From a bacterium (GTDB lineage: Bacteria > Electryoneota > RPQS01), in contig JABWCQ010000001.1 in the NCBI GenBank assembly GCA_013360195.1, positions 210,168 to 274,167 of the forward strand: a stretch of 64,000 nt of DNA. The letters run 5' to 3'. The notes beneath the pieces were generated by a model that worked only from the letters and a program-made list of their open reading frames with translations, was not told where the DNA came from and did not search any database. The number at the start of each line of letters is the position of its first letter. The stretch's first letter is position 1. Below are positions 29,395 to 54,793 of this stretch, in pieces. Made by a program: the position numbers and the translations under genes.

Positions 29395-29961
29395 TTGGCT
29401 TGCATTTTGCCACGGCTTGAGCCATAAGCTCGCCCTTGCAGTTGCTATAAGCTCTATAAGAAACATTGAGATAGACTCCTTGTAGCCCCTGAGGGTCTCT
29501 GACAATAGCGAACCCCCTGAGGATTATAGACTTTCGTTTTGCCGGGGGTTGAGAATGTTAAAAATAGACAAAACATTTTCCTTGACAAGTTGATTCCGAT
29601 TGACTATATTTGGGGAACTTTGACCAGTATAGAACTTTTTTGAACTTAGGTCAGACCCTTTTTAGTAAGTTCTTGTATTCCAGCATACCATTAAAAATCT
29701 GAACTTCCCCGATCGGACTCAAAAAGGAGCCGTGAAACGGAAGCTTGTGTTTTTTTCCTCAAGCTGGGTTGATTAAATACGGATGCGTTCATGCCAGATT
29801 CAAGTAACCCTACAGAATTGAACAGTCAGTACATGACAACGCAAGTTATCCACAGTGCCCACAGGGTGAACAGCCCGTCGAGTGGGCATTCGGCATGCGT
29901 ATCCGACGCTGCCTTTCCATCTCGGACTATGATGATTTCCCATATTCAGGAGAACCACAGA
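29395..29961. other. 567-base non-coding region: end of speB unit, promoter and long leader of the giant gene
   Basis: AACCCCC (29511-29517) and GGGGGTT (29544-29550) can pair as a weak terminator without a T-run. A perfect promoter is at 29582-29610. The leader from about 29617 to 29961 is about 345 bases and A/T-rich, with small hairpins: AGCTTG/CAAGCT around a T7 run (29742-29765) and TGCCCAC/GTGGGCA (29856-29888). An open frame from 29791 continues into the giant gene, but its first 57 codons are not like a secreted protein. A single DnaA-box-like TTATCCACA (29846-29854) is present. Confidence 0.6.
29582..29610 (+). promoter_or_regulatory. Promoter of the giant gene, TTGACA-17-TATATT
   Basis: Perfect -35 TTGACA (29582-29587), 17 bases, TATATT (29605-29610). 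It lies 345 bases or so before the signal-peptide ATG at 29962, so the mRNA has a long 5' leader. Confidence 0.75.
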
Positions 29962-32900
29962 ATGAGGTCCAAGACTCTTTTTGTGTGGCTGTTGACATCG
30001 ATCAGCCTTCTGGCGGCACTGGTGCTCCCGCAGCAAGCCAATGCCCAGATTAACGTTGATCCGCTTGTCAATGCCGTATGTGTTGAAGACCCCGCAACGA
30101 CGCCGAATAACATCATCGACGAACTCGGTGACGTTCTTACGCTCACTGCGCGGGCGGCTTATTTTAGCCCCTATTGCGATTCGGTAGACGTCGGTCTTGA
30201 CCCGAATCCGGATCTCGGTGTGCTGATACCGGCACTTTACCCGACGATCATCATCAACTGCCCGTCCGGTTTGACAAACTCGCTCTACGAGATGTCATAC
30301 ACACTGACGGACAATACGGGTTTGGACGGCGCTCCGGGCACTGATCCCGACAGCTGCTTGATCGTGGCAACGCTGACCTTCCATCCGGAAGGTGTGGCTG
30401 TGGCCGCGGGTACGCCGCTGCAATTCGGTATCACGTGGTTCGGTTTTGCGAACACGCCGCCGCCGGGTGGCCAGGCGACGCACTGCGCGGACGCCGGTTA
30501 CACGATTGCGGCACCGTGCTCCATCAACTCGGGCTGCGCTTTCATCCAGTACGCCGAATACGGCGGTTTTGCGTTTGACGGCATCGCCGCCATTCGTGAC
30601 TCGATCTGGCTGGACAGCGCGCTGGCTGTCACCATGGACTCTCTGGCCGGCGGTGACACGCTGGTGTGGGATGCTTCCGGCGTGACTTGCAACGGCGCGG
30701 TTGACTGGCGCGGAACGCAAGATACCGTTGAAATCGTTCCCTGCTCGATGGAAAACGAATTCGACGGCTGTGCCGCCGATACGATTTTCCTGATTCGCTT
30801 CGAATGGGATGCGGCAGGCGGTGATGTCTTCCCTGATGACGCTACACCGGTTGATACGTTCTACTGTATTCGCCAGATTGATAACCTGCCGCCGGTCATC
30901 GACATTTACTGTGTCGACTCCTGTCAGGTCATCAACGGCAACTACATGGACAACGACACCCTGGTGGGTTGCGGTGACAGATTGCGCGTCTTTATGAGTA
31001 CCACGCAGGCAGCCCAAGGTAAGTTCCCGGCCAACTGCGACGGTGATTCGGTTTCCATGACGTACAGCTATGAACCGAATCGCGTGGATTGCGATCAAAC
31101 GTCGCCGAATTTCGACGTTCTGTATCTCGCCGTTGATTTGAGCGAATTGGTTCCTGACGGCTTCCTGTTCCCGATGAACGAGGACAGTATTAACCTGTTG
31201 TCCAAGGACAGCGTCTGGGTATCGGACAATTTCGGTACCGGCCCTGATCCTGCGGGTGCCAACGACATCATCTGGGTTGACATTCCCATCTGCGTGCCGG
31301 ATCCAACCTGCGCCCTGTGGGATTCCATCCAGCTGTGCCTGTTTGATGCCTTTGCCGCCGGTGACTCGATTCGCGTTTGCTCGATCGACGACGCCGGTAA
31401 CACGTCAAATGAAATCGCCGCCGGCTATGAAGCTCCGGATCCGGATCCAGTCGTCGCGATCGAAGGTTGGGACGTTTGTCTTGACAACCAGCCGCCGGAC
31501 CTGCCGGGCCAGGAAATCTACTGGTCGGCTGACGGCGTGGACAACTATTGCAACCAGCGTTTCTCGCCTTATGACAGCGCATTGGCGACCTACTACACGA
31601 ACCTGTCGCCGGATTCCATCCGCTGGTACCTCGACGGTGTTGAGGTCGACTCGATTTATGATACGACGAGCACCTTTGACATTTTGACCCGCGTTTACTT
31701 GATCGGTTTCGACGTGCGGACAATTCCGGATGACGATCCGGACACCCCGAGTGGCAACATTATTACAGCGCTCGATTACTATCACCCGATGGCCGAGCCT
31801 GACTCGTCCGTTTGGGAGTGGCGCAACTATCTCGGAACGACCGGTGCCTGCTTTGTGTGGTATGGCAAGGATGGTCCTGACAGCTTGGATGCGGACCTTG
31901 ATATTCTTGCCGACTACTGCCCGTGGGGTATGCTGGTTGGTATTACCGAAGCCCGCTACATGGACGCCGGTGGCTGTAACGCCATTCTGGGTTCCGACCA
32001 TGACGGTATTACAGACATTCTCGACGGCTACACGCAGTTGAACGCGCTGTATGCTGTGGTTGACTCGTGCTTCCCGACCACGACGATTGCTTTGGATATT
32101 GACACCACGAACGGTCCTGCACTGCCCATCGGTCCGGATTACGGTTCCGTGATTGATCCGTATCTCTGGGTTGACGGCGATGATAATCCGTGGCTGCAGT
32201 TCAAGGCTCGCCGCTGGTACACGCAAGGTCTGTTGGATACCTGTCTGGCTGAAGACCTGTGCTACACGATTCGTCTTGACTCCATTTACACTCAGGGTCC
32301 GTGGCCGTTCGGCGCAGACTCTGTCATCTATTATGATCATACGGACGGCATCACGGGCGACTTCACCCGCCAGTGCCAGCCGTTGCAGTTCTTCTTCAAC
32401 GACATCAATACAGACACTATCTCGTTTGAATGGGGTATGCAAGGTCCGGGCGGTTCTCCGCTGCCTGACGGTTTGTATTGCTTGACGCTGGAACTGCAGG
32501 ATAATGCAGGTAATGTCTATCGCGGCGATCAGGTCTGTATGTGGATTAACGGTCTTGGACCGGAAATCGACTCGGTGGCCATCGTCAATGACAACCTCGA
32601 CTGCAATCTGAACTTCTTTGCCGGTGAATCACTCTGCGTCTGGATTCAGACCGATACGAGCGCACAAAGCGTTCTGTTCGACTTCTCCTGCATCCTTAAT
32701 ATAGAGGCGGTTGCCCCGGATCAGGATTCCATCTGGGTTGATACCCCCTACAGCACGGATGGCGCAACGTTCAAGCGTTGGTACGCCTGTCTGCTGGTTG
32801 ACCTCGCAATGATTGATACTGCGGACATCTCGAACAATGACTATCGCATTGGCGAGTATGATCCGGACTGCATCGATCCGAGCGACTATGGTATCATTAA

Positions 32901-35900
32901 TGTTCAAGCGTTCGATGCGGATAGCAATTATTCGCAGGCCGATACGCTTGACGGAACGTGCATCATCGCGCTGCTTGGCGAGAGCCGCTGCCCGCGCATC
33001 GTCGGACCGATTGAGTTCTGGTTCTTTGATCCGGACTCAGTGTTCCCACTCGGTGTGGTGGACAGCATCAACAGCCTGTTTGCCGGCTTCGATGAATTCG
33101 GCCCGATGCCGATGTGGAATGCGATGTCGCCGGGTTCAGTGGACTCGAGCGGCGCCTATGACGCTATTACGAATCCCGCGCACGATCAGCGACACGACTC
33201 AATCTTTGTCCGCATTCTGATTGACACGCTGTCAATCACGCAGATGGACAACTATGGCGTGCCGTTCGACGATGACGTGGCGCACGATACGCTCGTGCTG
33301 GAATTCCGTAACCCGAACACGGTTGAGAACCGCAGCCGCATTATTCGCAAGCCGCTGTTCATTCCGCCATGTACAAACCTTGATGGAACCCCGGGCTGCG
33401 AAGATCCTGACAACAACACTATATATGATGGCCGTCTCGAACTTGACGAGCACATCAACGCGTTGGCTGAGTTCCGCTATCAGTGGAATGGAACGTGGTT
33501 CCAGAATGCCGGTACCGACAGCCAGATGCTTGTGCCCATCACCGGTCAGGATACCATCATCGTGTCCGCCTGGACAATCGACGGCGATTCGTCCATCCAA
33601 ATCATCGGACCGGACACGATCTTCCTGATTTGTGACACGACGGTTGCCTACCTCGATGTCGATAACGACAATCCGGAATTCCTCGAGTGGACGGGCATTG
33701 CCCCCGGAGCGCGTGATCCTGCGACCCACAGTACCGCGACCGTGAACAATGACGGATGGGATGGTGACTGCGGCTTCCGTTATGCTGAAGGTGATACCTT
33801 CCAGTTGACGGTTCGCGCAAGTGAGCAGGTTCACTTTGATCCGGCGGCTTATCCGAACGAAGACGGTTCCTCCTATGGCCCGAACGGTACTGGCGACTGG
33901 ATTGAGACTGGAAACTGGCAGATTTCGCTGGTGGATAGCACGGCCGGTCTCTTGATTCCGAACGGCCTTGGTTATGTCACGGTCGAGTTGATTTCGGTCA
34001 CGCCGGAAAGCCTCGATTGGGACGAGTGGGAATATACGTTGGTTGGCCGTATCTACAATATGCCGGCTGATACCTTCATATATAATGCATGCTTCGTAAT
34101 TCGCGGTGCGTGGGACCAGGGTGCCAACCCGGGTCGCTACAACGAGCCCGCCTTCAGCGATGCTTATGAAGAAGACAGCTTCGAAGATACGACTTTCTGT
34201 CTGCACTTGATTCCGTGCGACCCGTGGGCCGATGGCTGCCCGGACGTCTTTGGTCCGGATAGTCTGCTGGGCTGGATTGCACCGGAAGATACCAATATCA
34301 CCGTTTGCGCGACGATTATCGAAACCTGCGAGATCACGGACTGCGTTCCGGGTGTTCATGCAGACTCGATCCGCGTCGTCGAAGGTGACTTCCAGCGCAT
34401 TACGGACGACCCGAATCCGTGGGTGGTTCCGGACAGTGTTGGTGACTGGTTCCTCTATGACAATGGCTTAGGTGATACTCTGGGTTGGGCTCGTAACTAC
34501 TACTGGTGGCTGCGTGCAGACTCGTCAGACCTCGCGACCATCTGGTGTGACGGAGACTACCTTGACTTCGAAATCCGCTTCGTGACGTGGGAAGGCCACG
34601 CCGATTCAATGACGTTCGACAGCTGTGTGCAGGTTGACGTCAATGAGCCGCGTTGGACGGATTGGTTCCTCCGCGACAGCACGGGTGTCGTGGTTGACCA
34701 GATGGACTTCGACGGTGATTGCTACGATCCGGAAGACACATTCACTCTTATTGGTTGTGTGACCGATAACGGTATCGATTGTCCGGATGGAGTGGGTATC
34801 GGCATTGATACTTCGATGATCTGGGCCGACCTGTCGCAGCTTCTGCAAGATGCGGCTATGGACAGCGTGGAACCTGACAGTGTAGTCATCGTTGGTCAGG
34901 TTACAACGGTCTATCCGTACGCCGGCGCGCCTGTGCAGATCAATGACCTTGACACGGCCTACGTGTTTATCAATGATCCTGACGCCGGTCTTGTTGCGGA
35001 TGTCAACGTAACCATCATCGACCTCGAACATACGTTTGACGGTGATCTGGAAATCGCACTTGTCTCGCCGAGCGGAACGGAAGTTGTCCTGAGTAACAAC
35101 AATGGCGGTGCTGGTAATGACTTCGTCAACACAGTTTTCGATGATGAAGCAGTTACGCCGATTTCCGCTGGTGCAGCTCCGTTTACCGGCTCCTTCCGTC
35201 CAGACGTGCCTTTGTCGGCCTTTAACGGCGAAGACCCGAATGGTACGTGGACACTTGTTGTTCGCGACCAGCTCGGTCTTGACGAAGGTTGGGTAAACGA
35301 TTGGTCCATTGAAATTACCTACTACACCGGCGCTCCGGAAGAAGTCAAGGTGTTGGCCTACTGGACCTTCCAGCCTGATTCCTTGTTCTTCTGCTTGAGC
35401 AGCCAGGAGCCGTGGTTCGTCTTCCATGCTGCGCATGATATGATTGGACACCACGACCGCGAGCTCTACTTGCAGGATACGCTCGAATTCTGCAGCGACT
35501 GCGTGCCGCCGGCGATCGTCGGTTCCTGGGCCAGCTGCGAATGCGATACGACCATTGAGGAAGTCGAAGACCTTTACAACGGTTTCGTGTTCCCGACGGA
35601 GCTGCCGTACTTGAGTCTTGGATCGCTTGTTTCATTCAACATCGGTGTCGTTGACGCTAACCACGATTCAAGTCTTGGTTTGGTTGAATGGCAGTGGGCT
35701 GATCTTTCGACCATTGACACCACGCAATCCTGGACTGAAAGCTTCTGGTCGTTCGATCCGAATACCGATGCTGTCGTTGACTCGGCGGTCTATTTCTGGG
35801 GCTACGAAGAATGTGTTCCAGATGATTTTGCGGTCGCTTCGCAACTGATCGAGCTGAATATTCCGTATCATAACGGTGACACCATCTTTGTCAACTTCGC

Positions 35901-38900
35901 CATTTCGGATTACGCCGGCAATGTTGACACCGTGCTGTGGCCGATTGCTATCTACGACTCGCTGCCGCCGATTGTTGACTTCATCTACACGATTGGTGAT
36001 GACTCGATTCGCGGTTATGTTTCACCGGGTGACGACCACATTCATGTCTATGCCGACATCAACGGCTATGTGAATGACCTGGTCAGCGCTCCGGAACAAG
36101 TCTGGGCAGACTTCTCGCAGTTCCAGTGCGATTCCGCGATGAAGGCCGCCTATGACACGGTATACGCCAACTACATTGAACACCTTGGAGGAGACAACTA
36201 CCGCGCATGGTGGGGATGGTATCCGGGTTCGTGGGTCGGCAATCCGTTCGATGTGAACTACCTGATTCCGGGCGACACGACCTCGCTGCCGTGGGATACC
36301 CTGTCGGCTTGCGAATCCTGCTCGACCTGGTTGACCGGTGCCGAAGGAACCTATGACTCGATCTGGGTCTATGTGACCGATCCGGCCTGCAACTTCGGTC
36401 AGCATTTCAACGTGTTTGAACTTTCGGGCTGCGACTCAACGACTCCGGGTCTGGACAGTGTCTGGGTTTGGGGTAACAACTGCGAAGTCGGCTGGATTTC
36501 CTCCACGCCGCTGGACAGTGGTCACATCGAAGTCTGGGCCTGGATGGATACCACCTTTGATGAGCTTGCAGACACCTTGATGATCGATTCGCTGCAAGTG
36601 AATCTGATTCAACTTGGTTCACCGCGCTGGGATCACACCAACTGGTCCACGCCGGACTTCTTCGGCGGCTGGCCGGTCTATGGTACGGATCCGACGCCTG
36701 ATTCGACCAAGTGGGAAATTATTAATGTCGATGGCCGCGACCGACTCGTCGGCAAGTGGCTGTGGCTGACAGCTGACGGCCTTGGAAACTGTGAGCAGGT
36801 TGTCGTGCCTGTGAAGTCCATCCGTCAAACGGGTCTGGGCGGATCGCATGGATACTACATGGATGTCGAATACGGCTACGCCCGTGTTGACACCACGCGT
36901 CCGGTCATCTACGACATGCGCGTTCACAGCATCACGACGTCCATCGCGGAAACCACTTGGGTGACCCCGAACTATCCGCTCGTGATTGATTTCTGGGCCT
37001 ATGACACTTCCTGTGATCCGGAAGAAACCGACCATGTCGGATTCGACTTGACCCATGACGAAGGCGGCCCCGGACCGTACATCTCGTTCCTCTGCGGCGG
37101 TATTCTGGATTCGCTCTGGACGTGGGACACCACCGCGTTCACGGTGACCTGGTACAGTGGCTGGGACACGATCGCTGACCCGGCTCCCGCCGATCCGGAA
37201 ATTGCGGCGCACGCCGACAGTATCTGCATCCAGTTCGTCGGTCAGCCAATTTATGATGACTCCTGTAACGTGATCGACCTCGACGACCTCGAAGGCTGTG
37301 TCACCGCTTACATCGAAGACTGCTTGTCGAACCCGGCCGTGCCGGTGACCAAGACGGTTACCACGGACGATCGTCCTCCGCAATACGTGAACAGCATCCC
37401 GTGGGGTGACTACACCATTGCGACGGGATTCCCGGGTGACCCGGACATTGACGGTATTGACTCCGTCCTTGTTCTGCAGAATTCAAACTACAACCTCGAC
37501 TGGGACAGCACGCTGTTCGTGTACGTGATCGTTGATAACGCGCCTGGCGACACCCTGTTGTCGTGGGAGAAGACCTACATCGACTTCACGGGCTTCATGA
37601 ACGATCCGCTGCAGTACCCGGATTCGATCTACTACAACATCGACGGTAACCACCGCGACTCGATTCTGTGGGTCATCCCGCTGTATGACGAGTTCGGCGG
37701 CGGCGCGCTGTTCAACACGAACATCGTCTCCAACCGCTACTGGTGGCACCTGTACCTGAGCGACTCGCTCTGCAACCGTGCGTCCTTCTACTGTGTGGAC
37801 CTCGACAGCGCGATTTCGTTCACGATTCAGAACTGGACTTCGCCGGTTACCGGTATGCAGCTGCTGTGCGATTCGAACACGGTGGCTGGCTCGGACAGCG
37901 ACTTCGTTGACCAGTTCAATATGGACCTGTGGAACAACGAGAAGGTGTCTCCGGACGATGCGATGGAGAACCTCTATAAGATCTGGCCGTATGACCAGGG
38001 CGGTTGGAGCTGGTATTCGCATGAAGATGTGAACCAGACTCGCTTCTTCGTCTTTGTCGAGGATACGGTGCTGCAGGCTGACGGCATTGACAATGACAAC
38101 GACGGTCTGTTTGATGAAACGGGCGAAGGTGTGGACTTCTACACCGCCGACCTGCGCATCAATGCATTCCCGCAAGTTGGTCATGTTGATTCGATGAACG
38201 TTGACGGCGTCTGGATTAACTACCTCTGGTTTGCCGATAACTTCAGCGAAGGCCGTTACAACGTCGAATTGTACATCAGTGACATCTACGGCCACCGCGA
38301 CACGCTGGCTTGCGGTGACTTCGCGCTGACGTTCTTTGAAGACGAGACCTGTCCGACTGGTTCCGCCTTCCGCGCCTTTGATGTCGAACCTGTTGACACA
38401 CAGGAAATGGAATGGTGCTGGAACGGCGAGTTTGTCGGCACGATTTATCCGCCCAGCTTCACCGCGGATGACAGCCTGTTCCTCGGTGCAAACTTTGATT
38501 CATTGATCGTGTTCCTGAACGATCCGGCAATCTTCGATGACACGCAGCCCGGCTCAGGTGTTGACTACGACACAAGTACGGCTGTTGACAGCACCAATTG
38601 GAACAACGGCGCCGCCTCAAGCGTCCGCCTGTTGGATCCGAACGGCGTCGAAGTGGCCTTCGTGCAGCAGTATGATACGTCAGACGGCTATGCCTATGGC
38701 GAGCGTCCGCTGTACCTCGTGGATCCGACCGGAACAGCCCTCGAAGGTCATCCGGACGGTGTGTACACGATCGAAGTTGTGGCCCTTGACAACATGGGCA
38801 ACAGCTGCACCTACAACTGGAACTTCACCCTTGACCGCACCTGTCCTGACATTCAGCAATTCTTCGTGGCGCATCCGGGACAGCACGATGCACAGGAAGA

Positions 38901-47900: not shown

Positions 47901-50900
47901 GCTGTGGTCGGCGCAACTCGCTACGACCGACATCGGTCCGGATAACAACTACTACCTGCGTGTCGTGGCCTGGGACGAGGCCGGCAACTGCAGCGAACAT
48001 GCGATCACGATTTACGTCGAGGATTCGCAATACCAGCGTGCCTGCATCGTCGGCTATGACGATGACAACGAGTTCGCCTGCAACGACTACCTGTATGCGG
48101 TGACCGACGACTGCGACACCAACTGGACTGCCCAGGTGCAGTTCCAGGTGTCCACCAACCAGGGTCAATCGTGGATTCCGCTGGCCGACGCCGTCAACAC
48201 GCGCGAAGACCAGTGCAACGACTGGCTTGGATGGCACCTCTGGCAGGTTACGCTTGAATTCGATCTCTACCCGGCCAACGCATGGTTCCGTGCCGTTGCC
48301 TGGGATGAAAACGGCAACGTCGATCCGAACCCGGCAATCTGGCGCCGTGCAGACGTCACCACCACTGACCAAGTCCAAATCTGGGCTCCGGACTGGGTGC
48401 GTGTACCGAGCAACGGTGAACAGCAGCCGTGGGTATTGACGACCTTGGAAGACTACACCGAAAACTGCTTGATCGAAGCCGGTGTGGTCTGCATCGAGCC
48501 GGAAGCCGGTTCCACCTTCTATGCTGGCGAACTGCCGTCCAATACCAGACCGTGCGAACTGGAAGACGAAGATGGACGCATCACTGTCTTCACCTCCAAC
48601 AAGGTGCAGCAGGGTGACAACACCTTCATCCAGATCGTTACCTATGCAATGGACATCCACGAAGCCAACTATCAGGGCGGTTCCAACGGTACGCTGGTCA
48701 GTGAAGACGGCGTGCTCGAAGTCACCATTCCTGCTTGGGGCACCGGATGGCGCGGATCCCTGTGGTTCCAGCCCTACCTGATGTCACAGTCGCATAGCAT
48801 GGTTCCGGCCTACCAGTACTACTACACGTTGATCTCGAACGTCGAGGAAATCCAGTCCGATGACCTCGATGAACTTGACATCGTTCAGCCTGCATCGTCC
48901 TTCCGTATGCGCTTCGACAACAGCTTGCTTCCGGAAAACGCGGAAGAATGGCAAGTGGTCGTCGCATACTGGAACTGGGATGCCTCGGATGAGTCCGGAA
49001 TGTACAACGGTATGTGGCAGGAGTGGGGTATCACCTACAACGACCGCGACCTTGAAAACGGTATCGTTGACTTCCAGTGGACTCCGGATTGGGATATCTC
49101 AGACCTGACGTCCATCTGTCCGGATCGCGTTCGCTTCGGTGTGTTCCTCACGAGCATCCGTCCGATCGACGAATTCGTCCGCATGAACAATGGTGGCGAT
49201 TGCGATGTGTTCTATGAAGACCTGACGTACTACAACGGCATGCCGGTCGTCGATTGCAACCCGCTGTGGTGGGTGGTCCTCGGCGAAGGCGAGTATCCGC
49301 CGACTCCGGACCGTGTGGACGTCTGGCTTGACGGTATCCGCATCGTCAATGACGGTGAAGTTGCCGAAATGGATGACATCGAAGGCTACGAAGACTGCTA
49401 CTATGACGAACTGTTCACGACCCACTATGACGAAGTAAGCGGTATGTATTCGGTTCAGCTGAATCCGCAATACTACAGCTGCCCGCCGTGGTTCGGTTGC
49501 TTGCCGCAGGGCGTCCATACCATCCAGTTCTTCGTGGATGACCGTCCGACTAATGTGACGCCGTTCTACGTTGACAACACCCCGCCGACCGCGCATGCCG
49601 AGCCGACCTATATCGGTGACGTCAGCGTGACCCTGTGGGCTGACCTGATCGACCGCGAATCCGGCATTGACACCATCAGTGTGTACCTCGACCTCGCCAA
49701 CTGCGGCGTCGAAAACAGCGACTACGTGCACGAAATCACGGCGGAAGCCATGACCTTCGAGCCCATCTACGAAGACCAAGTCCTCATCGGTTACCGCGCC
49801 TCTGTCACCGTACAGTGGGACGGCCTGATCGAGAACATCTTCTACGATTGGTACGATGATGAGTACCCGTACTACAGCGGCGCGCTGGAATGTCCGCTGA
49901 CGCTGTGCGCACACTGGCACGTGTACAACAACGTCTGTAACTACAACGAAGAAACCGAAGATTATCGCTACACGGTGGATATCCTTCCGCCGGTCATCAC
50001 CCCGGTCTCGCCGATCGGTGCTGCAATCGATGACGACGGTGACGGCGTTGCGAACGAAGACGGAGTTGATTGCGAAAATAACGACGGCGACTTCTTCTGG
50101 ACCCATGATTGGGGCTGGGAGCCGCGCTATGACGAAGATCCGATCAACTTCGCGATTGACACGTTCAATTGCGGAGAGCGCATCGCGATCCAGGGTTCTA
50201 TCAGTGATTGGGCGCGCTGCTGCTACGGAGCCGCGGGCGTCAATCTGGACGGTGTGCAGTGGGTCATTGACGGCACGATGTACACCATCGGAGATACCGC
50301 TAATGCTGGCTTGAACTTCTTCGTCAACCAGCCCGGCCAGAACGACTTCGTGTTCAACTTCGGTGGTGACGCCTCCGGCGAAGCTGCTGATGTCTTCTAC
50401 ACGCCTGGCATCCACACCATTACCATGTTCGTTCCGGATAACGCCGGAAACATCGGTACGACGGATGCGCAGATGTTGAGCTGGTCGTGGTATGTGGCTT
50501 GCCCGGGTCCGTCTGTTGAATTCAACGGCGGTGAGTGCGGCCCGTGGTTCAATCCTGAGTACAATCAGCAGAACCCGCAGGAATTCAGCTTCGTGGTTCG
50601 TACTGTTGCAACCGCCCCGATCGCCCCGAACGGTATCTCCTATACCGTGACCACGGTGCCGAGTGGCGAAATTGTCAGCGGCCCGACCACCATTGACCCG
50701 CAAGGTCAGGACGAAGTTGAAGTCGAATTCAGCCTCGATGGCTCGTTCCCGGATGGCCAGACCGGTCTGGCAGTCACCGTTGAAACCCGCAACATCTACT
50801 ATGTCGCAGGTGGAAACGACGGCTACAACCTGTCCAGCTTCACCTACACGGCCGACGGCTGCGCGCCGACCGATCTGGCTCACTTCCCGGCTTCGGATGA

Positions 50901-53190
50901 CAGTGTCCAGAACGAAGGTAACGTCGTGGTTGAAATCCATTACACTGATGACTGCGAAGACGGCCTCTTCCGTGCCGGCAGCGACGTCACCCTGACAAAG
51001 GGCATGGCGACCGTGAACAGCACCGGCAGCAAGTCCGGTAACGCAGCTAAGTCCGAGACGCGTGTTGACCGCGATGGTGATGGTATCCTTGACGACAACG
51101 GCTCCGGTATTATTACCGACCGTGTCTGGTTCGTCGTGGTGCCGCCGCGTGGCGAAGTCCTCCGCTTCGAAGATGAAGAAGACTTCATTGAACGCACAAT
51201 CTCCAGCGCCAAGATTGTCCTGACTGATCCGCAAGCCGGACGTTGGACGGTCAACGCTTACGCCGAAGACTGTGTCGGCAACCTGATGACCAGTACGTGG
51301 ACCTTCTGGGTTCGCAGCACCGGACCGGTTGCATCCTTCACTGATGCTGAAGAAGCTACCTGCCAGTACAACGGCTTCTGGAACCCGGATCGCCCGCTGT
51401 ACTTCGCAGCTACGGTACAAGAAAATGACGGCGCCAACGTCAACAACAACGGTATCGCGGTTCGCTTCGTCGGTCTTTATGACGGCGACAACGGTATTGA
51501 AGAAGTTGACCTGACCGCCAATGTGACGCTGAATGTTACGCCGGCCTACAACAGCGGCAACACCGAACAGACGTTCGAAGTCACAGGCAACGCGACCTTC
51601 GGCGACTTCGGTGGCCACGGCACCCCGACCGATGTTCGCATCGTCCTGACCGCTACCGACCAGTACGGTACGACGACCGAAATCGTTCAAACCTGGGTGG
51701 TTGACGACGCCGCGCCTGTGGTTCAGGTCCTGAGCCCGCTGCCCAACAGTGTGGTCAACGGAGACCTCATGGTGACCATCAGCGCTCACTTCTACGATGA
51801 CGAAGATGCCGGTGCCGCCGGTATGCCGGGTGACGATCAATCCATCATGATGGATAAGAACCTGACCCCGACGACCGGTCTGATTGGTGGCAGCATGAAG
51901 GGCGGAAAGAGCGACGCGACCATGAACGTCACGACCACAACCCGTATTGATATGGGTGAATGGCGCGATGCGTTGATGCGCGGCTTCTCGAGCCTCGACG
52001 GCAACAGCGGTGTGGATCCGAGCTGTATCGAGTTCCGCCTGTTGAACCATGTCAACGGTCAGTACACCGACCTGATGGAAGGCGCTGTTATCAATGGCGG
52101 CGTGATTACCTGGACGGGCAACCTCGAAGATGGTGACTACACCGTGGTCCTGACTGTCTGTGACTACGTGTGCAACACCACAAGCGAGATCTGGTCGTTC
52201 GCGGTGGTCAGCTTCGATGACTGCCTTGCCAACATCTACTTCTTGCCGCCGTTCCATGTGTCCGCAATGCCGCACTGCTTCGAAGCCTTGGTCGATTGCG
52301 ACCAGGTTGACCGCAGCACGGTCACGATGACGCTGGAAGGTGCAATGCTGGTTGACGGTCAGCTGGTCTTCGCCCCGATCGTGGTCGATGCACCGGTGGC
52401 CTTCAATGGCGACACCGCCACCTACTGTGCCAACTTTGATCTGACCGGTCTGAATAGCATCCGTGCGACGCTGAACGGTAACTTCAATGGCGGCTCACCG
52501 ATGGCGCCGATCTCGCAACTGTACACGGTCGACACTGGCGCGCCGATCTTCACGAACGTGCAGCCGCTGTCCGACGACGAGAATCCGCTCGCAGTTCTTG
52601 AACCGATCACCTTCCGTGTGGACTTCGCTGAAGTCGGTACGGTCGGCCTTGATCCCGCCAGCGTCCGCATCTGGCTGACAGCCGCGGACGGTACGACGGT
52701 TCCGGGTGAATCCAATGTCAGCATCGCTGGCAACGGCCTCACCGGCTACGCGACTCTCGCCTTCACGGGTCTTGAGTCAGGCGCCTACACCCTCCATGCG
52801 GAAGTCAGCGATCTCGCCGGCAACCGTGCAACGGGTGAATGGGGTCAGCGTGTCGGATACCCGGATATTCTGGTCGGTGGCGATACGTACAACTACCCGA
52901 ATCCCTTCACGCCGGAAGATGGTTACACAACCTTCGTCCTGCCGATCGAAGAAGGCTCCGGCAATGGTGCGTACGTTTCCATCAAGATCTACGACTTCTC
53001 GGGTCGCTTCGTAGCTACGGTGTTCGAAGGCAGCCTCGCCGATAACAACCGGGCAATCACTTGGGCTGGTACCAACGACCAGGGCGAAGAAGTCGCCAAC
53101 GGTGTGTACCTCGCCAATGTGACTGTCACCGGCACCGGTAAGACCGTCAACAACATCGTCAAGGTCGCGTACAAGAAGGCGAGCAACTAA
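29962..53190 (+). CDS. Giant secreted multi-Ig surface protein with T9SS-type C-terminal sorting domain
   Basis: 7,742 residues from ATG 29962, chosen because AGGAGA lies 8 bases upstream and the protein then starts with a clean signal peptide (MRSKTLFVWLLTSISLL, cleaved after QQANA). The open frame from 29791 adds 57 unlikely residues. The body is about forty Ig-like modules of about 190 residues, joined by linkers such as VDNTAPQV, VDNEAPVAT and DTTPPSSM, and often ending in A-x-D-x-x-GN. It is very acidic, rich in Asp, Trp, Tyr and Cys, and poor in Lys. Embedded are two P-domains (about 1660-1788, 3171-3296), a CBM48-like module (about 4136-4213) and DxDxDG loops (about 2708, 4383, 6690, 7034). 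The last 100 residues (NYPNPFTPEDGYTTF, KIYDFSGR, GVYLANV) are a FlgD-like sorting domain. Likely a cell-surface fibre or adhesin; ligand unknown. Confidence 0.85.
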   Translation: MRSKTLFVWLLTSISLLAALVLPQQANAQINVDPLVNAVCVEDPATTPNNIIDELGDVLTLTARAAYFSPYCDSVDVGLDPNPDLGVLIPALYPTIIINCPSGLTNSLYEMSYTLTDNTGLDGAPGTDPDSCLIVATLTFHPEGVAVAAGTPLQFGITWFGFANTPPPGGQATHCADAGYTIAAPCSINSGCAFIQYAEYGGFAFDGIAAIRDSIWLDSALAVTMDSLAGGDTLVWDASGVTCNGAVDWRGTQDTVEIVPCSMENEFDGCAADTIFLIRFEWDAAGGDVFPDDATPVDTFYCIRQIDNLPPVIDIYCVDSCQVINGNYMDNDTLVGCGDRLRVFMSTTQAAQGKFPANCDGDSVSMTYSYEPNRVDCDQTSPNFDVLYLAVDLSELVPDGFLFPMNEDSINLLSKDSVWVSDNFGTGPDPAGANDIIWVDIPICVPDPTCALWDSIQLCLFDAFAAGDSIRVCSIDDAGNTSNEIAAGYEAPDPDPVVAIEGWDVCLDNQPPDLPGQEIYWSADGVDNYCNQRFSPYDSALATYYTNLSPDSIRWYLDGVEVDSIYDTTSTFDILTRVYLIGFDVRTIPDDDPDTPSGNIITALDYYHPMAEPDSSVWEWRNYLGTTGACFVWYGKDGPDSLDADLDILADYCPWGMLVGITEARYMDAGGCNAILGSDHDGITDILDGYTQLNALYAVVDSCFPTTTIALDIDTTNGPALPIGPDYGSVIDPYLWVDGDDNPWLQFKARRWYTQGLLDTCLAEDLCYTIRLDSIYTQGPWPFGADSVIYYDHTDGITGDFTRQCQPLQFFFNDINTDTISFEWGMQGPGGSPLPDGLYCLTLELQDNAGNVYRGDQVCMWINGLGPEIDSVAIVNDNLDCNLNFFAGESLCVWIQTDTSAQSVLFDFSCILNIEAVAPDQDSIWVDTPYSTDGATFKRWYACLLVDLAMIDTADISNNDYRIGEYDPDCIDPSDYGIINVQAFDADSNYSQADTLDGTCIIALLGESRCPRIVGPIEFWFFDPDSVFPLGVVDSINSLFAGFDEFGPMPMWNAMSPGSVDSSGAYDAITNPAHDQRHDSIFVRILIDTLSITQMDNYGVPFDDDVAHDTLVLEFRNPNTVENRSRIIRKPLFIPPCTNLDGTPGCEDPDNNTIYDGRLELDEHINALAEFRYQWNGTWFQNAGTDSQMLVPITGQDTIIVSAWTIDGDSSIQIIGPDTIFLICDTTVAYLDVDNDNPEFLEWTGIAPGARDPATHSTATVNNDGWDGDCGFRYAEGDTFQLTVRASEQVHFDPAAYPNEDGSSYGPNGTGDWIETGNWQISLVDSTAGLLIPNGLGYVTVELISVTPESLDWDEWEYTLVGRIYNMPADTFIYNACFVIRGAWDQGANPGRYNEPAFSDAYEEDSFEDTTFCLHLIPCDPWADGCPDVFGPDSLLGWIAPEDTNITVCATIIETCEITDCVPGVHADSIRVVEGDFQRITDDPNPWVVPDSVGDWFLYDNGLGDTLGWARNYYWWLRADSSDLATIWCDGDYLDFEIRFVTWEGHADSMTFDSCVQVDVNEPRWTDWFLRDSTGVVVDQMDFDGDCYDPEDTFTLIGCVTDNGIDCPDGVGIGIDTSMIWADLSQLLQDAAMDSVEPDSVVIVGQVTTVYPYAGAPVQINDLDTAYVFINDPDAGLVADVNVTIIDLEHTFDGDLEIALVSPSGTEVVLSNNNGGAGNDFVNTVFDDEAVTPISAGAAPFTGSFRPDVPLSAFNGEDPNGTWTLVVRDQLGLDEGWVNDWSIEITYYTGAPEEVKVLAYWTFQPDSLFFCLSSQEPWFVFHAAHDMIGHHDRELYLQDTLEFCSDCVPPAIVGSWASCECDTTIEEVEDLYNGFVFPTELPYLSLGSLVSFNIGVVDANHDSSLGLVEWQWADLSTIDTTQSWTESFWSFDPNTDAVVDSAVYFWGYEECVPDDFAVASQLIELNIPYHNGDTIFVNFAISDYAGNVDTVLWPIAIYDSLPPIVDFIYTIGDDSIRGYVSPGDDHIHVYADINGYVNDLVSAPEQVWADFSQFQCDSAMKAAYDTVYANYIEHLGGDNYRAWWGWYPGSWVGNPFDVNYLIPGDTTSLPWDTLSACESCSTWLTGAEGTYDSIWVYVTDPACNFGQHFNVFELSGCDSTTPGLDSVWVWGNNCEVGWISSTPLDSGHIEVWAWMDTTFDELADTLMIDSLQVNLIQLGSPRWDHTNWSTPDFFGGWPVYGTDPTPDSTKWEIINVDGRDRLVGKWLWLTADGLGNCEQVVVPVKSIRQTGLGGSHGYYMDVEYGYARVDTTRPVIYDMRVHSITTSIAETTWVTPNYPLVIDFWAYDTSCDPEETDHVGFDLTHDEGGPGPYISFLCGGILDSLWTWDTTAFTVTWYSGWDTIADPAPADPEIAAHADSICIQFVGQPIYDDSCNVIDLDDLEGCVTAYIEDCLSNPAVPVTKTVTTDDRPPQYVNSIPWGDYTIATGFPGDPDIDGIDSVLVLQNSNYNLDWDSTLFVYVIVDNAPGDTLLSWEKTYIDFTGFMNDPLQYPDSIYYNIDGNHRDSILWVIPLYDEFGGGALFNTNIVSNRYWWHLYLSDSLCNRASFYCVDLDSAISFTIQNWTSPVTGMQLLCDSNTVAGSDSDFVDQFNMDLWNNEKVSPDDAMENLYKIWPYDQGGWSWYSHEDVNQTRFFVFVEDTVLQADGIDNDNDGLFDETGEGVDFYTADLRINAFPQVGHVDSMNVDGVWINYLWFADNFSEGRYNVELYISDIYGHRDTLACGDFALTFFEDETCPTGSAFRAFDVEPVDTQEMEWCWNGEFVGTIYPPSFTADDSLFLGANFDSLIVFLNDPAIFDDTQPGSGVDYDTSTAVDSTNWNNGAASSVRLLDPNGVEVAFVQQYDTSDGYAYGERPLYLVDPTGTALEGHPDGVYTIEVVALDNMGNSCTYNWNFTLDRTCPDIQQFFVAHPGQHDAQEDLFTSWDYVELRAIIDDSLDGIEHVAFDYAFDANRDGEVDAYSYWQTRNIWVEGLDDGDQTWPFAAYWNIRNLTWNNEDTLGLPPVNPDSCLNTWFVRVHAWDKFGNYCVDTIEVEITDDIAPLAYISNVDGDTTPQGYLVPCFEPNVDTDSLIEIRAFDFQGGIYDPLPGDTTFAVFSYADEETDQLFSSGTMEAYINVTDDFSILDVNIIVNDLRHSYVGCLAIELESPTGTIVELTNYNWQGYNDMIGLTFDDEAFRPINDGNAYAPYNGAFRPEELLSAFDGESTLGTWTLRITETCGYEGELNSWSLVITERPIGGLATYQWFDLAKGMFQYKFFEAPGTYVPGNTDPAAGWVTMVTPGQDSVSYRQPGTEDFAVQWNIAGLPSHQYNLRFLSMDVCDNVDALNTPVITVRIECDTTAPMALICFPTEDLCVTNLRCDTTQWVPVQSTAPIMSDVDSIAYFFVDSLSVPGLGIHTFIGGASSADSIVNGWAYYHSTAWNTDNLLSGYYWLYAVAYDDAGLFDTDPIWTRVFVDNTAPQVTECWIGNWSGDYFAPIYTIGEGQSFALRANASDNIGLAQDCGISGVQFQFLDRYGNWRNLEEATDWNEAWGADVYIYPYYTHGFVTDQDANGYYELQVTFYEFGNSPLDSVRFRAIAVDNVHAEGWGDNNWQGDANRDCRIDRDLACGVDVCCSAIEIRDALPEGTHLWCFNHAWFQWGLPQYSAPTEPIFDGDKFSTCNYQNPIDTLLLVANVADYVEDEWLMYFKFWRADGTTDTFDVPNDYTLNPALPRNADSAVVLESTWDSVYVVWTGVRAFLDSADAADGLVYSRWDFAAIVEDLTGNQEEMSYGENACFIYTFCPPNTPITEVSYVTNDVNEPDNRVRVEEAVAWQDTETDTIEVLYNRTTDPGSNDPEALVLFRVDENTIRNCHDDEVDVFNLELWRLDDEGELESLCDESPLVDFDYFNEFQAWDQYPPDNGTDYELGLYFDNSYAPGVYNFAVIVNYLVSAPFSNDTLTEGDTDCDGYVESNDFTKIDIVVRIVNVNEPQVVFCYPNYGDVCGAHNTVPLSANDVSDPNYFTGEITQVAFERWDGTAWVPVIDPVTGVNYDTNPGNATVRFQLDEKEVPGMAGWYYERHSNPVYSWYAERDLFPDVAVYVWDLDEFFPMTDDGNGFWTADIYLNHGDEDCYEYSFVIDANDNNLWEGPNTDRWIDDPRNIDWDNQDPVAYDRCDTDEFDEVFDGGAAFSTLCLCEYVVNFNSLTVGDGHHEFRTVVTWYDGVAYHVIENPAPGDSIHVFFVDNDEPVATHDIEFDNYWLNGGRCDVADDVYFVTDIQPVDGNYNLVVEDICAVIYQVSLTSNPFADSSWVNVDTIYSNDDMGWTEAWPGIWGAINPITDNIDNDGDGLVDETYDVQAGDGRGEENTLFWSRSIVTDHCGNTYCTPAESIWVDVSEPRACITLVGDVEPGVNGNDVVVVPASRDLEIVATNQDYAGFDQSILGVFQYRTLNPIGPWTNIQADTLSNDTVRHIGNTITATWDLLSYFQETGNDPEGWYQLRVIAIDTVNNTDLCDNDVCYITVRLNDIEPAARIAIYQIMSDGEEVASSCTVDSSYYIQTADDPYCITAIFAPTNIDTGLASITFQYAEVNGGVPSNWRNIETIWDPINNGLNGDTTQCVYFQPQPEDVGDQEIFWIRAIVEDYNGNDTSDAVVLYIDALPPTGEGEAETTAEVATACGDRCWLTIDPGQAIIWMDFDADILSGEFNIDQVWLTAVREDSLYSFNFGEMTRSDDDEWYFDFEGDLCDYWAEHRYESGEGGQYPVLDYGCYTFTVHFTDCQGNEDSVVVTTDCGNGATDLVCIDCFPAVPEHTDILGLDYSGLDCTLDSGYVELTDQILDGTTEIGGDQTVTVWGVIPTYEQSIWYMVLYVESQEAGVTETAVDTFWWNPTFNSHNDPSWNIGWWLADTLDDGTAKYPSGYYRVWARAHDAICQIEPTEMLDEFWVHVDHGEPVGDIIQVNGEPVTPENTWIEINAGEDNPATLWVEWTDGLTPDDSTQTNNVVTVWCKNIWHPNQADAWTQCGYIPSPCNPHYVELDLTNITCGDSLHVIAIVQDRWGNGDLDVERVMEAFDDGHAINIYIFDTTPPSSMVWSVGTSEEPWCEVEGDIEGLWIVDQQTNTVSVGALGDIHDIWLHAFTTIGDDWPTINGDVERVYFEYSFDGTTWYEIGVDEEDQAPCAWDGGEPAPWWDGVDHEIFWSVIWDVSGLAGDVWVRSWAQDECGNSEEMETYIVSFDVQAPMAQVFVWEDGVNIDNLETCNDWTEPQVGDSVERFTWLTVGACADETEGDAYGAHWFIKRAEDHPLEMWSWCFIGDDSTGPFSVNDVDLWHNDCPAPQPGLWYDIAVLTTDQAGNELTWTQFLNYGEGTTVEEKWSWLMANGYVKRIYISDTQAPVAHDLVTAPDCTPDSSVIFLHGDIQLYAEVDDEDVVAVTFAFLEVGSNGPWTVIERVEGEPGDFAPVEGHWNTELLNGTYWVGAFAEDDFGNMNGNLTLGEAGAPNALLQVNVDNEAPVATIVSVWRTDDPAQTPVTQLERGAEVTFHIEAQDNFTVRKVRFYYRHTNGEPSAWTQVGGDRTWPFSFNWTVPTDLVVGWTYDFAAVAVDYCEQTDQYDDQGNYIIDWTAPVVDEEANISIVSLNDYFFDVEGTPHIHGTDICIYANSEPTLDHVRFIFVTAAGDTHEIRTVQGNIGDTEWSNCQGSGSYWDVTVLPEGPGQICAIGSADLGGELVTLATDCRNIVIDHSLPWTLTDEMPSSHGLLGGYCALTGPITIDGQPDDIWVHFNDELTDAGLDTVWFEWKWAADPNDDNYWNAIGYAYQDNGLTGNWVYSWDVYNYFEQCGTISLRAVLSDNSVPESNLAYVLFADTVRVDNCPPTVLFTNVNGDLTPDNTVIPWGEIINMVATAEDVFGNGGNSDVDSVCFYGGNTPDEVDLISCDTQGPLWSAQLATTDIGPDNNYYLRVVAWDEAGNCSEHAITIYVEDSQYQRACIVGYDDDNEFACNDYLYAVTDDCDTNWTAQVQFQVSTNQGQSWIPLADAVNTREDQCNDWLGWHLWQVTLEFDLYPANAWFRAVAWDENGNVDPNPAIWRRADVTTTDQVQIWAPDWVRVPSNGEQQPWVLTTLEDYTENCLIEAGVVCIEPEAGSTFYAGELPSNTRPCELEDEDGRITVFTSNKVQQGDNTFIQIVTYAMDIHEANYQGGSNGTLVSEDGVLEVTIPAWGTGWRGSLWFQPYLMSQSHSMVPAYQYYYTLISNVEEIQSDDLDELDIVQPASSFRMRFDNSLLPENAEEWQVVVAYWNWDASDESGMYNGMWQEWGITYNDRDLENGIVDFQWTPDWDISDLTSICPDRVRFGVFLTSIRPIDEFVRMNNGGDCDVFYEDLTYYNGMPVVDCNPLWWVVLGEGEYPPTPDRVDVWLDGIRIVNDGEVAEMDDIEGYEDCYYDELFTTHYDEVSGMYSVQLNPQYYSCPPWFGCLPQGVHTIQFFVDDRPTNVTPFYVDNTPPTAHAEPTYIGDVSVTLWADLIDRESGIDTISVYLDLANCGVENSDYVHEITAEAMTFEPIYEDQVLIGYRASVTVQWDGLIENIFYDWYDDEYPYYSGALECPLTLCAHWHVYNNVCNYNEETEDYRYTVDILPPVITPVSPIGAAIDDDGDGVANEDGVDCENNDGDFFWTHDWGWEPRYDEDPINFAIDTFNCGERIAIQGSISDWARCCYGAAGVNLDGVQWVIDGTMYTIGDTANAGLNFFVNQPGQNDFVFNFGGDASGEAADVFYTPGIHTITMFVPDNAGNIGTTDAQMLSWSWYVACPGPSVEFNGGECGPWFNPEYNQQNPQEFSFVVRTVATAPIAPNGISYTVTTVPSGEIVSGPTTIDPQGQDEVEVEFSLDGSFPDGQTGLAVTVETRNIYYVAGGNDGYNLSSFTYTADGCAPTDLAHFPASDDSVQNEGNVVVEIHYTDDCEDGLFRAGSDVTLTKGMATVNSTGSKSGNAAKSETRVDRDGDGILDDNGSGIITDRVWFVVVPPRGEVLRFEDEEDFIERTISSAKIVLTDPQAGRWTVNAYAEDCVGNLMTSTWTFWVRSTGPVASFTDAEEATCQYNGFWNPDRPLYFAATVQENDGANVNNNGIAVRFVGLYDGDNGIEEVDLTANVTLNVTPAYNSGNTEQTFEVTGNATFGDFGGHGTPTDVRIVLTATDQYGTTTEIVQTWVVDDAAPVVQVLSPLPNSVVNGDLMVTISAHFYDDEDAGAAGMPGDDQSIMMDKNLTPTTGLIGGSMKGGKSDATMNVTTTTRIDMGEWRDALMRGFSSLDGNSGVDPSCIEFRLLNHVNGQYTDLMEGAVINGGVITWTGNLEDGDYTVVLTVCDYVCNTTSEIWSFAVVSFDDCLANIYFLPPFHVSAMPHCFEALVDCDQVDRSTVTMTLEGAMLVDGQLVFAPIVVDAPVAFNGDTATYCANFDLTGLNSIRATLNGNFNGGSPMAPISQLYTVDTGAPIFTNVQPLSDDENPLAVLEPITFRVDFAEVGTVGLDPASVRIWLTAADGTTVPGESNVSIAGNGLTGYATLAFTGLESGAYTLHAEVSDLAGNRATGEWGQRVGYPDILVGGDTYNYPNPFTPEDGYTTFVLPIEEGSGNGAYVSIKIYDFSGRFVATVFEGSLADNNRAITWAGTNDQGEEVANGVYLANVTVTGTGKTVNNIVKVAYKKASN
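34939..35325 (+). other. First P-domain (proprotein convertase type) inside the giant protein
   Basis: Residues about 1660-1788. Typical motifs: VTIIDLEHTFDGDLEIAL, SPSGTEVVLSNNNGG, FDDEAVTPIS and NGTWTLVVRDQLGLDEGWVN. In subtilisin-like convertases this domain stabilises a protease; in surface proteins it appears alone as a beta-sandwich, often binding calcium. Confidence 0.85.
39472..39849 (+). other. Second P-domain inside the giant protein
   Basis: Residues about 3171-3296. Same order of motifs as the first: NIIVNDLRHSYVGCLAIEL, SPTGTIVELTNYNWQG, FDDEAFRPIND, LGTWTLRITETCGYEGELN. It is clearly a diverged copy of the first, about 1,500 residues further along. Confidence 0.85.
42367..42600 (+). 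other. CBM48/E-set-like module inside the giant protein
   Basis: Residues about 4136-4213. The pattern V-x-V-W-x-L-x-x-F-x-P-M-T-D-D-G-N-G-F-W, then DIYLNHGDEDCYEYSFVID and DRWIDDP, matches glycogen-binding (AMPK/CBM48) modules with their conserved W, L-x-x-G-x-Y-x-Y-x-F-x-V-D core and terminal DP. Carbohydrate binding is possible but not shown. Confidence 0.6.
52880..53187 (+). other. C-terminal FlgD-like / type A sorting domain of the giant protein
   Basis: Residues about 7641-7742. NYPNPFTPEDGYTTFVLPIE, then VSIKIYDFSGRFVATVFEG, WAGTNDQGEEVANGVYLANV and VKVAYKK. This is the standard layout of domains that direct export through T9SS-like systems or attach proteins at the surface in FCB-group bacteria. 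Confidence 0.85.
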
Positions 53191-53197
53191 ACGACAA

Positions 53198-53236
53198 CTT
53201 GCAGGGTGGGGAAGGAGCGCTTTCCCCACCCGCAAG
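53198..53236 (+). terminator. Strong hairpin between the giant gene and the PorV/OmpA gene
   Basis: CTTGC (53198-53202), one bulged A, then GGGTGGGGAA (53204-53213) pair with TTCCCCACCC (53222-53231) and GCAAG (53232-53236); ATTCTTTATT follows. Fifteen pairs with one bulge, loop GGAGCGCT. It may stop most transcripts of the giant gene and let some through to the next gene, or protect the 3' end of the giant mRNA. Confidence 0.75.
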
Positions 53237-53294
53237 ATTCTTTATTCCAGAGATGATTTACTTGAGAATAGCCGATAGGACAGGAGGAAGGGAT

Positions 53295-54740
53295 ATGACA
53301 TCCCGAATTCGCAATACGGCGCTGGGACTTGGCATTATTATGATGTTCTGTGTTTCAGCCGCCAACGCGCAAAACTACGCCGCACCATTCCTGCGGATGG
53401 GTGTGGGTGCGCGGGCGATGGCGATGGGTACCGCCCAGACTGCCGTTGCCAACGATGCGACTGCGGCCTACTGGAACCCCGCTGCTTTGCATTGGCTGCA
53501 CAAATTTGAAGTGTCGCTGATGTACACGGGCGGACTGGAAGCAGATCGCAATTACAACTACATCGGTGCGTCGTTGTGCGCCGAGAAGCTCGGAACCTTC
53601 GGCCTGTCTTGGCTCAACTCCGGAATTACCGGAATCGGGCAGTATGACGACGGCGGCAACAAGACTGGTGACTTCGACGTCGCCAACAATGCCTTCCAGC
53701 TGAACTATGCACGCGGACTCGGCGGCGGTTTCGCCCTCGGAATCGGTGCAAAGTATCTGCAGGAAAATCTCGCCGATAATGACGGCTGGGGCGTTGATGC
53801 AGGTCTGTTGTTCCGTCCGTACGACGAGCTGACCTTTGGTTTCATGATGCGTGATCTCGCCGGTGAGTACGGCGAGGATAACGTGCCCTACGAGGCCCGC
53901 TTCGGCGTCGGCGTCAATCCGTGGAAGGGTGTTACCCTGACCGGTGACCTGAACGCGGTCGAAGATGAAGAAGCCACGTTGGACATTGGAGCCGCTTATG
54001 ACTTCCATGTCAGCGACAATGTCAGCTTCTATCTCGCTGGCGGCGTTAACGACATGGTTGAAACCGATCAGACCAATCGCGGCTTCACTGCCGGATTCGG
54101 TTTCGGTTTCAAAAGCTTCGCTCTGCAGTATGCCTTTGTGGAAGAACCGCAGGCCTTCCTCAATGAGAACCATCGCTTGTCGGTCAACTTCTACTTCCAG
54201 GAGTGCAACGATTTCAAGAGCGCGATGGGTAGTCTGAAGCGTAAACCGCGCGAAGAAGCAATGGTTGCCAAGACCGACGGTCCGAAGGAATTCATCCATC
54301 GCTACATTTTTGAAGGTAATCCGTCCCTTAAGCTCAGCCTCGAATTGCTGCGCCCCGAAGTGAAGGATTCCATCGAGTCCGTGTGGATGGAAACCGGTGG
54401 TGTTGTCAGCTTCCCGGGCATCAACTTCGCCACGGGTTCGGCTGAAATCACTGATGAATTTGCACGCGTTCTGGACGGCGCGGCCAAGCTGATCAACGAG
54501 CATCCGGAAATCCAGCTGCTTGAAGTTCAAGGCCACACCGACAACACCGGTTCGGACGCCATCAACAACCCGCTCTCACAGGCACGTGCGGACGCCGTTC
54601 GCAACTACCTGATCTCACGTGGTGTTGATCCCAGCCGCTTGGTTGCCAAGGGCTACGGCTCTTCCAAGCCCGTTGCCAGCAATGCCAACGAGCAGGGCCG
54701 TTATCAGAATCGCCGTATCGACCTCGTTCGCATCCGGTAA
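53295..54740 (+). CDS. PorV/PorQ-like outer-membrane barrel fused to an OmpA domain
   Basis: 481 residues from ATG 53295 (AGGAGGAAGG just upstream; the longer frame from 53199 precedes the signal peptide and is rejected). Signal peptide MTSRIRNTALGLGIIMMFC, cleaved after ANA. Residues about 25-300 are the PorV/UPF0164-type barrel, with the start motif GARAMAMGTAQTAVAND and AAYWNPAAL, then alternating strands. After a linker, residues about 365-481 are OmpA-like with FATGSAEITDEFARVLDGAA, VQGHTDNTG, LSQARADAVRNYL and NRRIDLVRI, including the Asp and Arg that hold diaminopimelate. PorV shuttles cargo in T9SS; here it would also be tied to the cell wall. It directly follows the giant cargo-like gene. 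Confidence 0.8.
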   Translation: MTSRIRNTALGLGIIMMFCVSAANAQNYAAPFLRMGVGARAMAMGTAQTAVANDATAAYWNPAALHWLHKFEVSLMYTGGLEADRNYNYIGASLCAEKLGTFGLSWLNSGITGIGQYDDGGNKTGDFDVANNAFQLNYARGLGGGFALGIGAKYLQENLADNDGWGVDAGLLFRPYDELTFGFMMRDLAGEYGEDNVPYEARFGVGVNPWKGVTLTGDLNAVEDEEATLDIGAAYDFHVSDNVSFYLAGGVNDMVETDQTNRGFTAGFGFGFKSFALQYAFVEEPQAFLNENHRLSVNFYFQECNDFKSAMGSLKRKPREEAMVAKTDGPKEFIHRYIFEGNPSLKLSLELLRPEVKDSIESVWMETGGVVSFPGINFATGSAEITDEFARVLDGAAKLINEHPEIQLLEVQGHTDNTGSDAINNPLSQARADAVRNYLISRGVDPSRLVAKGYGSSKPVASNANEQGRYQNRRIDLVRIR

Positions 54741-54765
54741 CGAGGGTTAGTGTATTTGACCAGTA

Positions 54766-54793
54766 GACGAGCACGGCTAAGGCCGTGCTCGTC
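54766..54793 (+). terminator. Perfect hairpin after the PorV/OmpA gene
   Basis: GACGAGCACGGC (54766-54777) pairs perfectly with GCCGTGCTCGTC (54782-54793), loop TAAG. There is no T-run, so it may rely on Rho or act as an RNA 3' end stabiliser. Confidence 0.7.

Follow-up and report, generated by a model that had tools for sequence, protein, structure and literature searches.

A giant predicted T9SS cargo and its PorV-OmpA neighbour, a conserved candidate for carriage and wall anchoring

The closest described counterparts of the locus are surface proteins held by outer-membrane barrels of the T9SS. In Flavobacterium johnsoniae, the 669 kDa SprB forms a cargo-carrier pair with SprF (PMC9143113), a barrel that is required for both the secretion and the surface retention of SprB (PMC9143113, PMC12618676, PMC12635249). 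Type B cargo needs a cognate barrel encoded directly downstream (PMC12618676), and the Cys-x-Cys tail of SprF binds GldK, the moving track (PMC12635249). In Porphyromonas gingivalis, PorP-PorE holds PG1035 and links it to peptidoglycan, and this type of wall anchoring has been proposed for non-mobile cargo (PMC9143113). The C-terminal domain (CTD) of PorU is uncleavable and PorU is held by PorV, while PorZ is held by PorQ, the CTDs being kept (PMC5562754); according to a proposal made in a review, PorV-like barrels shield their cognate CTDs from cleavage (PMC10202324). The presence of a T9SS in Cloacimonadota has already been noted (PMC11285876).

The locus lies in a window of 64,000 nt, the whole stretch of DNA that was analysed, from an uncultured bacterium. 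It resembles SprB-SprF in that the gene for a giant predicted T9SS surface protein is immediately followed by the one for its own 14-strand, FadL-type barrel (PMC9143113, PMC12618676, PMC12635249), but SprB-SprF combines a type B CTD with a PorP/SprF-family barrel, whereas here the CTD is PorU-type and the barrel is of the PorV family. The periplasmic tail of SprF leads to the moving GldK track, and in its place the barrel here is fused to an OmpA wall anchor. With PG1035-PorP-PorE it would share a barrel-held surface CTD protein and an OmpA-type tie to peptidoglycan (PMC9143113), although those are three separate proteins with a PorP-family barrel and a type B CTD. PorU-PorV and PorZ-PorQ offer the precedent of a retained CTD docked on a PorV/PorQ barrel, the giant's own CTD being PorU-type (PMC5562754, PMC10202324), but PorU and PorZ themselves serve the T9SS as enzymes or in LPS handling and are not giant beta-arrays. 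By analogy, the best reading is that giant and barrel would work like SprB-SprF or PG1035-PorP-PorE, using a PorV-family barrel and a PorU-like CTD.

What is new is the fusion of barrel and OmpA domain, the PorV-family barrel in a carrier-anchor role, and the conserved giant partner; no PorV-OmpA fusion was found in the open-access literature. A downstream barrel beside CTD cargo (SprB-SprF) and an unfused barrel with a peptidoglycan anchor (PorP-PorE) are already known. A preliminary description of this DNA had seen the novelty in the fused partner next to so large a cargo: the fusion stands as new, but the downstream barrel itself is published and the giant size is not strictly required.

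The giant gene, its CTD and the PorV-OmpA gene

The coding frame of the giant is unbroken over 7,742 codons, beginning at ATG 29962 and ending with a stop at 53190. The frame extends 5′ to ATG 29791, and the start at 29962 yields a clean signal peptide. The protein is very acidic (computed net charge about -1025), and the features mapped on it are:

29962..53190, plus strand: secreted giant built of beta modules, 7,742 aa with a pI of about 4, predicted to be T9SS cargo (reading frame; colinear orthologues)
29962..30045, plus strand: Sec signal peptide, MRSKTLFVWLLTSISLLAALVLPQQANA followed by Q, ending ANA/Q (read by eye)
35002..35313, plus strand: P-domain 1, PF01483 (profile match)
39541..39837, plus strand: P-domain 2, PF01483 (profile match, 42 bits)
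43234..46641, plus strand: AlphaFold2 model of a slice, with about 8 all-beta modules of Ig/FN3-like type (low confidence)
48028..48861, plus strand: 280-residue block kept between the giants of the order and of Cloacimonadota (profile comparison)
52738..53163, plus strand: PorU/FlgD-type C-terminal domain, predicted to serve T9SS sorting or docking (NF033707, 69.7 bits; PorU 6za2, E 0.004)

The signal peptide, the two P-domains (91 bits to PF01483 over both stretches) and the sorting-type CTD agree with the preliminary description. Its count of about forty Ig-like modules holds as an order of magnitude but not as an exact number, since few modules are named by Pfam (Big_3_3, Big_7, Big_13 and FlgD_ig). 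The modelled slice, 1,136 residues long, consists almost wholly of beta structure (mean pLDDT 56.5), and extrapolation from its roughly 8 modules would give, at low confidence, some 50 beta modules for the whole protein; it was used as a rough guide instead of an iterated self-HMM count, which returned 13 repeats, an undercount. Ig-type linker motifs (13, vs 2.3 in shuffled sequence) and F-strand motifs (16, vs 1.0) are found at 6 to 16 times the shuffled level. Foldseek searches with the slice led to Ig/FN3 arrays and to the grappling hook protein GhpA (9flu, E 5e-6) of the FCB bacterium Aureispira, a very long Ig-type surface protein, a likeness that rests on the low-confidence model and is a lead only. 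No PorU protease domain was found in the giant.

The CTD matches the C-terminus of PorU (NF033707 positions 950-1091) at 69.7 bits and FlgD_ig at 32 bits (cut-off 27), and by these profiles it is PorU-type. Its scores against the type A model PF18962 (15.6 bits) and the type B model CHU_C (PF13585, 17.8 bits) fall under their cut-offs of 27. Judged by analogy with PorU, the CTD is probably uncleaved. It does pass the type A model TIGR04183 marginally (24.2 bits, cut-off 23), so that cleavage by PorU is possible.

The downstream gene probably starts at ATG 53295, which is preceded by a good Shine-Dalgarno sequence, and not at TTG 53199. It encodes a signal peptide, a PorV-family barrel, a linker and an OmpA domain, in that order:

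53295..54740, plus strand: PorV-family barrel fused to an OmpA domain, 481 aa, with signal peptide MTSRIRNTALGLGIIMMFCVSAANA followed by Q (profiles, sequence)
53367..54197, plus strand: 14-strand PorV-like outer-membrane barrel (profile; predicted model; best PDB matches PorV)
54279..54410, plus strand: conserved periplasmic linker, GPKEFIHRYIFEGNPSLKLSLELLRP... (alignment in the order)
54426..54713, plus strand: OmpA peptidoglycan-binding domain (PF00691; binding Asp and Arg)

With 128.8 bits against the PorV/PorQ family NF033709 (cut-off 90; 130.2 bits in the genome search) and 79.3 bits against PF00691, the gene is the joined PorV-like barrel and OmpA domain that had been proposed. The barrel scores far under the equivalog cut-offs for PorV (NF033710, 53 vs 250 bits) and PorQ (NF033711, 69.5 vs 220), and on profile evidence it is a member of the PorV family but not a canonical PorV. 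Its model has 14 strands (FadL-type) at a mean pLDDT of only 53.7, and the best PDB matches are 6h3i_F and 8gl6_F (PorV of the T9SS translocon, E 6e-11), followed by FadL. Within the order the linker shows higher identity than the barrel does (86% vs 76%). The binding residues D416 and R431 (481-aa numbering) are invariant in 10 of 10 orthologues, suggesting that the fused OmpA domain binds peptidoglycan.

A search of the plus strand revealed no promoter-like site or terminator between the giant and fusion genes. Two further features flank the pair:

29582..29610, plus strand: TTGACA-17-TATATT, a promoter-like site ahead of the giant gene (consensus match only)
55776..57125, plus strand: FG-GAP (integrin-alpha-like) beta-propeller protein with signal peptide (profile match; third cluster gene in relatives)

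The FG-GAP gene comes third in the clusters of nearly all members of the order, is absent from that of genome G008, and may encode an accessory of the cluster. In the window it is separated from the PorV-OmpA gene by about 1 kb (54741-55775) that carries its own promoter-like site (54862-54890), whereas in relatives it directly follows the fusion. Further downstream, at 57350-58657 in the window, comes a nucleotide-sugar dehydrogenase gene; in most members of the order, this and other genes that seem to belong to surface-polysaccharide synthesis lie behind the cluster.

Conservation in the order and in other lineages

A PorV-OmpA orthologue is present in 12 of the 13 order genomes searched (two families); the remaining genome is 56% complete and has the giant. 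Wherever contigs of the order reach far enough, a large CTD-bearing protein is encoded immediately upstream of the fusion, with open frames of 7,525, 7,319 and 7,841 codons, 2,324 codons in G008, and truncated frames of at least 4,091, 3,248, 2,152 and 685 codons. The giant is colinear over its full length with relatives at 71, 51 and 46% identity, while the 2,324 aa orthologue of G008 lacks the first ~5,245 residues. The giant of another member (G011, L067-L068) has an insertion at the block matching residue ~5800 of the window protein; it appears von Willebrand A-like, with a D-x-S-x-S motif (by eye), and is a hint of adhesion.

In a scan of 84,980 genomes, the nearest barrels outside the order were those of Cloacimonadota. 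There, a giant of 5,650 to 7,763 codons is followed by an unfused PorV-like barrel and then by an OmpA protein of the PorE/CHU_0125 family, and full-length PorE-like proteins occur in these cassettes. The layout is that of PG1035-PorP-PorE, including a PorE-family protein, but with a barrel of the PorV family. That barrel and OmpA domain stand as separate genes behind homologous giants provides Rosetta-stone evidence for a joint function of the parts united in the fusion. Homology between the giants was detected with 300-residue profiles, which matched in largely the same order and with up to 126 bits, while control proteins (109,000 residues) reached no more than 19 bits except at the shared CTD. 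Much of this homology between phyla had been masked by the default bias filters of HMMER and was revealed with --max and the 109 kaa of control ORFs.

Another lineage (G280) emerged from a search of 386 genomes in which a single internal block of the giant served as the query and the barrel played no part. Its giant of 3,415 + 1,556 codons is split by one in-frame TAA and is followed by a PorV-TSP3-OmpA fusion. The single TAA after codon 3,415 (G280:C34, L191) is an assembly error or a real split. All seven genomes of this family carry the PorV-TSP3-OmpA fusion, preceded by a giant of ~4,950 residues in the members with upstream sequence (G280, G396, G397, G398 and G400), the frame being broken in two in G398. 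Giant and fusion are co-conserved in at least two unrelated lineages, the kind of co-occurrence that the preliminary description had proposed to look for. In G178, a 3,452-aa CTD protein is paired with an unfused barrel, and in G200 the gene upstream of the barrel ends in a CTD.

A tree of 100 PorV-family barrels groups the sequences from the order with those from Cloacimonadota, the G280 family, G178 and G200 in a single clade (support 0.996). Two fusions of G122 and one of G075 fall outside it, so the PorV-OmpA fusion probably arose several times. Branching inside the clade has support of 0.26-0.70, which is no proof of independent fusions there, but differing linkers (a 44-residue conserved linker vs TSP3 repeats) favour them.

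The two fusions of G122, a genome with about 17 PorV-family genes, lie next to CTD proteins of 1.1-1.2 kaa (L175, L176), and the idea that PorV-OmpA is exclusive to giants was rejected; the partner of the G075 fusion lies off the contig. A giant partner is usual for fusions but not required, as is also seen in G008 (2,324 aa).

Barrel-cargo pairing and the T9SS of the host

Of 73 PorV-family genes taken from outside the training loci, 43 are immediately preceded on their own strand by a CTD gene, compared with 29 of 522 other ORFs (5.6%), a contrast that is somewhat inflated because the background consists of ORFs of at least 150 residues, some of which are not genes. None of the 76 barrels of this general sample is fused to OmpA. 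A barrel paired with a CTD protein is thus nothing unusual in itself, whereas a fused wall anchor and a giant partner are. Chance proximity of giant and fusion was rejected, given their conservation and the background rate. Barrels of the PorV family lie directly downstream of CTD genes in many phyla (L076-L086, L097-L166), often in tandem, and this looks like a general cargo-carrier rule. Some barrels next to CTD proteins have other C-terminal extensions (TPR-like tails of 100-400 residues; L190, L149, L157, L128), and other kinds of periplasmic coupling may exist.

The host genome encodes one SprA (730 bits in a single frame), PorU (633 bits) and a canonical PorV (284 bits). SprA lies on another contig than the giant, as do porU and porV, which adjoin. 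A profile search gave about a dozen PorV-family genes in this genome, and there are at least 150 Por_Secre_tail CTDs besides that of the giant. A second PorU-like protein, of 1,842 aa, is encoded together with a PorV-like barrel of its own at G000:C5:95415-101998 (L078), and similar pairs of a 1.6-1.75-kaa CTD protein and a barrel occur at five other loci (L114, L116, L118, L160, L164). No match to PorP/SprF (TIGR03519) was found at E<=0.001 in the whole host genome, in a search run without a positive control genome. Matches to the PorE family (NF052230, TPR-propeller-OmpA) involve the OmpA part only, and PorM/GldM was not detected in the host or in other non-Bacteroidota genomes, with two Bacteroidota control genomes positive.

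The preliminary description had named three outcomes that would speak against it. Instead, the barrel matches the PorV/PorQ family, fusions are not equally common without giants, and T9SS genes (SprA, PorU and PorV) are present. Its suggestion of a dedicated export system is nonetheless not supported: no T9SS translocon gene is linked to the pair, the sole SprA is on another contig, and the giant's export is presumably by a T9SS, and an SprA, shared with at least 150 other CTD proteins.

Export, anchoring and wider meaning

The likely reading is that of a giant with its own carrier and wall anchor, in which export is shared and the CTD is kept. The giant, which carries a signal peptide, would cross the inner membrane by Sec and the outer membrane via the cell's single shared SprA translocon. 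Its PorU-type CTD would remain attached and dock on the PorV-family barrel of the neighbouring gene, in the way that PorU and PorZ stay bound to PorV and PorQ by their CTDs, while the fused OmpA domain, with its conserved residues, would grip peptidoglycan on the periplasmic side. The product would be a static fibre, built from some 50 beta modules and measuring about 200 nm when fully extended, that is tied through the outer membrane to the wall and probably serves in adhesion, capture or cell-cell contact. A specific carrier-anchor role is argued for by the pairing in the order, the homologous cassettes of Cloacimonadota, the third lineage found without a barrel query, and the single barrel clade.

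Export of the giant as ordinary type A cargo, with the general PorV carrying it, PorU cutting off its CTD and PorV-OmpA acting as a structural tether without a specific display role, is unlikely. The canonical PorU-PorV, the at least 150 cargo CTDs of the genome and the score just above the TIGR04183 cut-off would suit such a route, but the CTD resembles the C-terminus of PorU (69.7 bits) much more closely than it does the type A models (15.6 for PF18962), and adjacency has been kept in four lineages, with a dedicated barrel clade. Translocation of the giant by the barrel itself, independently of SprA, is very improbable: an operon-like pair kept over long distances would fit a self-contained system, but 14-strand barrels of the FadL/PorV type are carriers that collect cargo at the lateral opening of SprA (PMC9143113, PMC12618676), SprA is present, and in published cases cargo of type A as well as type B depends on it. 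Least probable is a mobile adhesin of the gliding kind, its fibre linked through the barrel to a moving track, for although SprB-SprF has the same gene order, a similar size (669 kDa) and a cargo-carrier pair (PMC9143113), the PorP/SprF family and GldM were not detected in the host genome, and an OmpA wall anchor, which implies a static fibre, takes the place of the SprF Cys-x-Cys tail (PMC12635249).

With carriage and wall anchoring of the giant as the preferred reading, the pair looks like a real, conserved anchoring module within the known scheme of cargo, carrier and wall anchor, and not a new export system. More tentatively, with somewhat less than even confidence, it may represent an ancient class of T9SS cargo and carrier in several uncultured FCB-type lineages. 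In this class, one conserved lineage of giant fibres would have its PorU-type CTD retained by a PorV-family barrel of its own, which would add a third solution to general PorV and PorP/SprF. The wall anchor would have been fused repeatedly and independently, giving a static fibre without a recognisable GldM motor.

The locus bears on how the T9SS sorts cargo that is cut off from cargo that is kept, and on what keeps very long surface proteins from being torn from the outer membrane. It is a natural carrier and wall anchor in a single polypeptide, with an unfused counterpart in another phylum, so that two genes suffice to test the idea of CTD protection (PMC10202324). The locus further suggests that specialised carriers extend beyond PorP/SprF and are common outside Bacteroidota.
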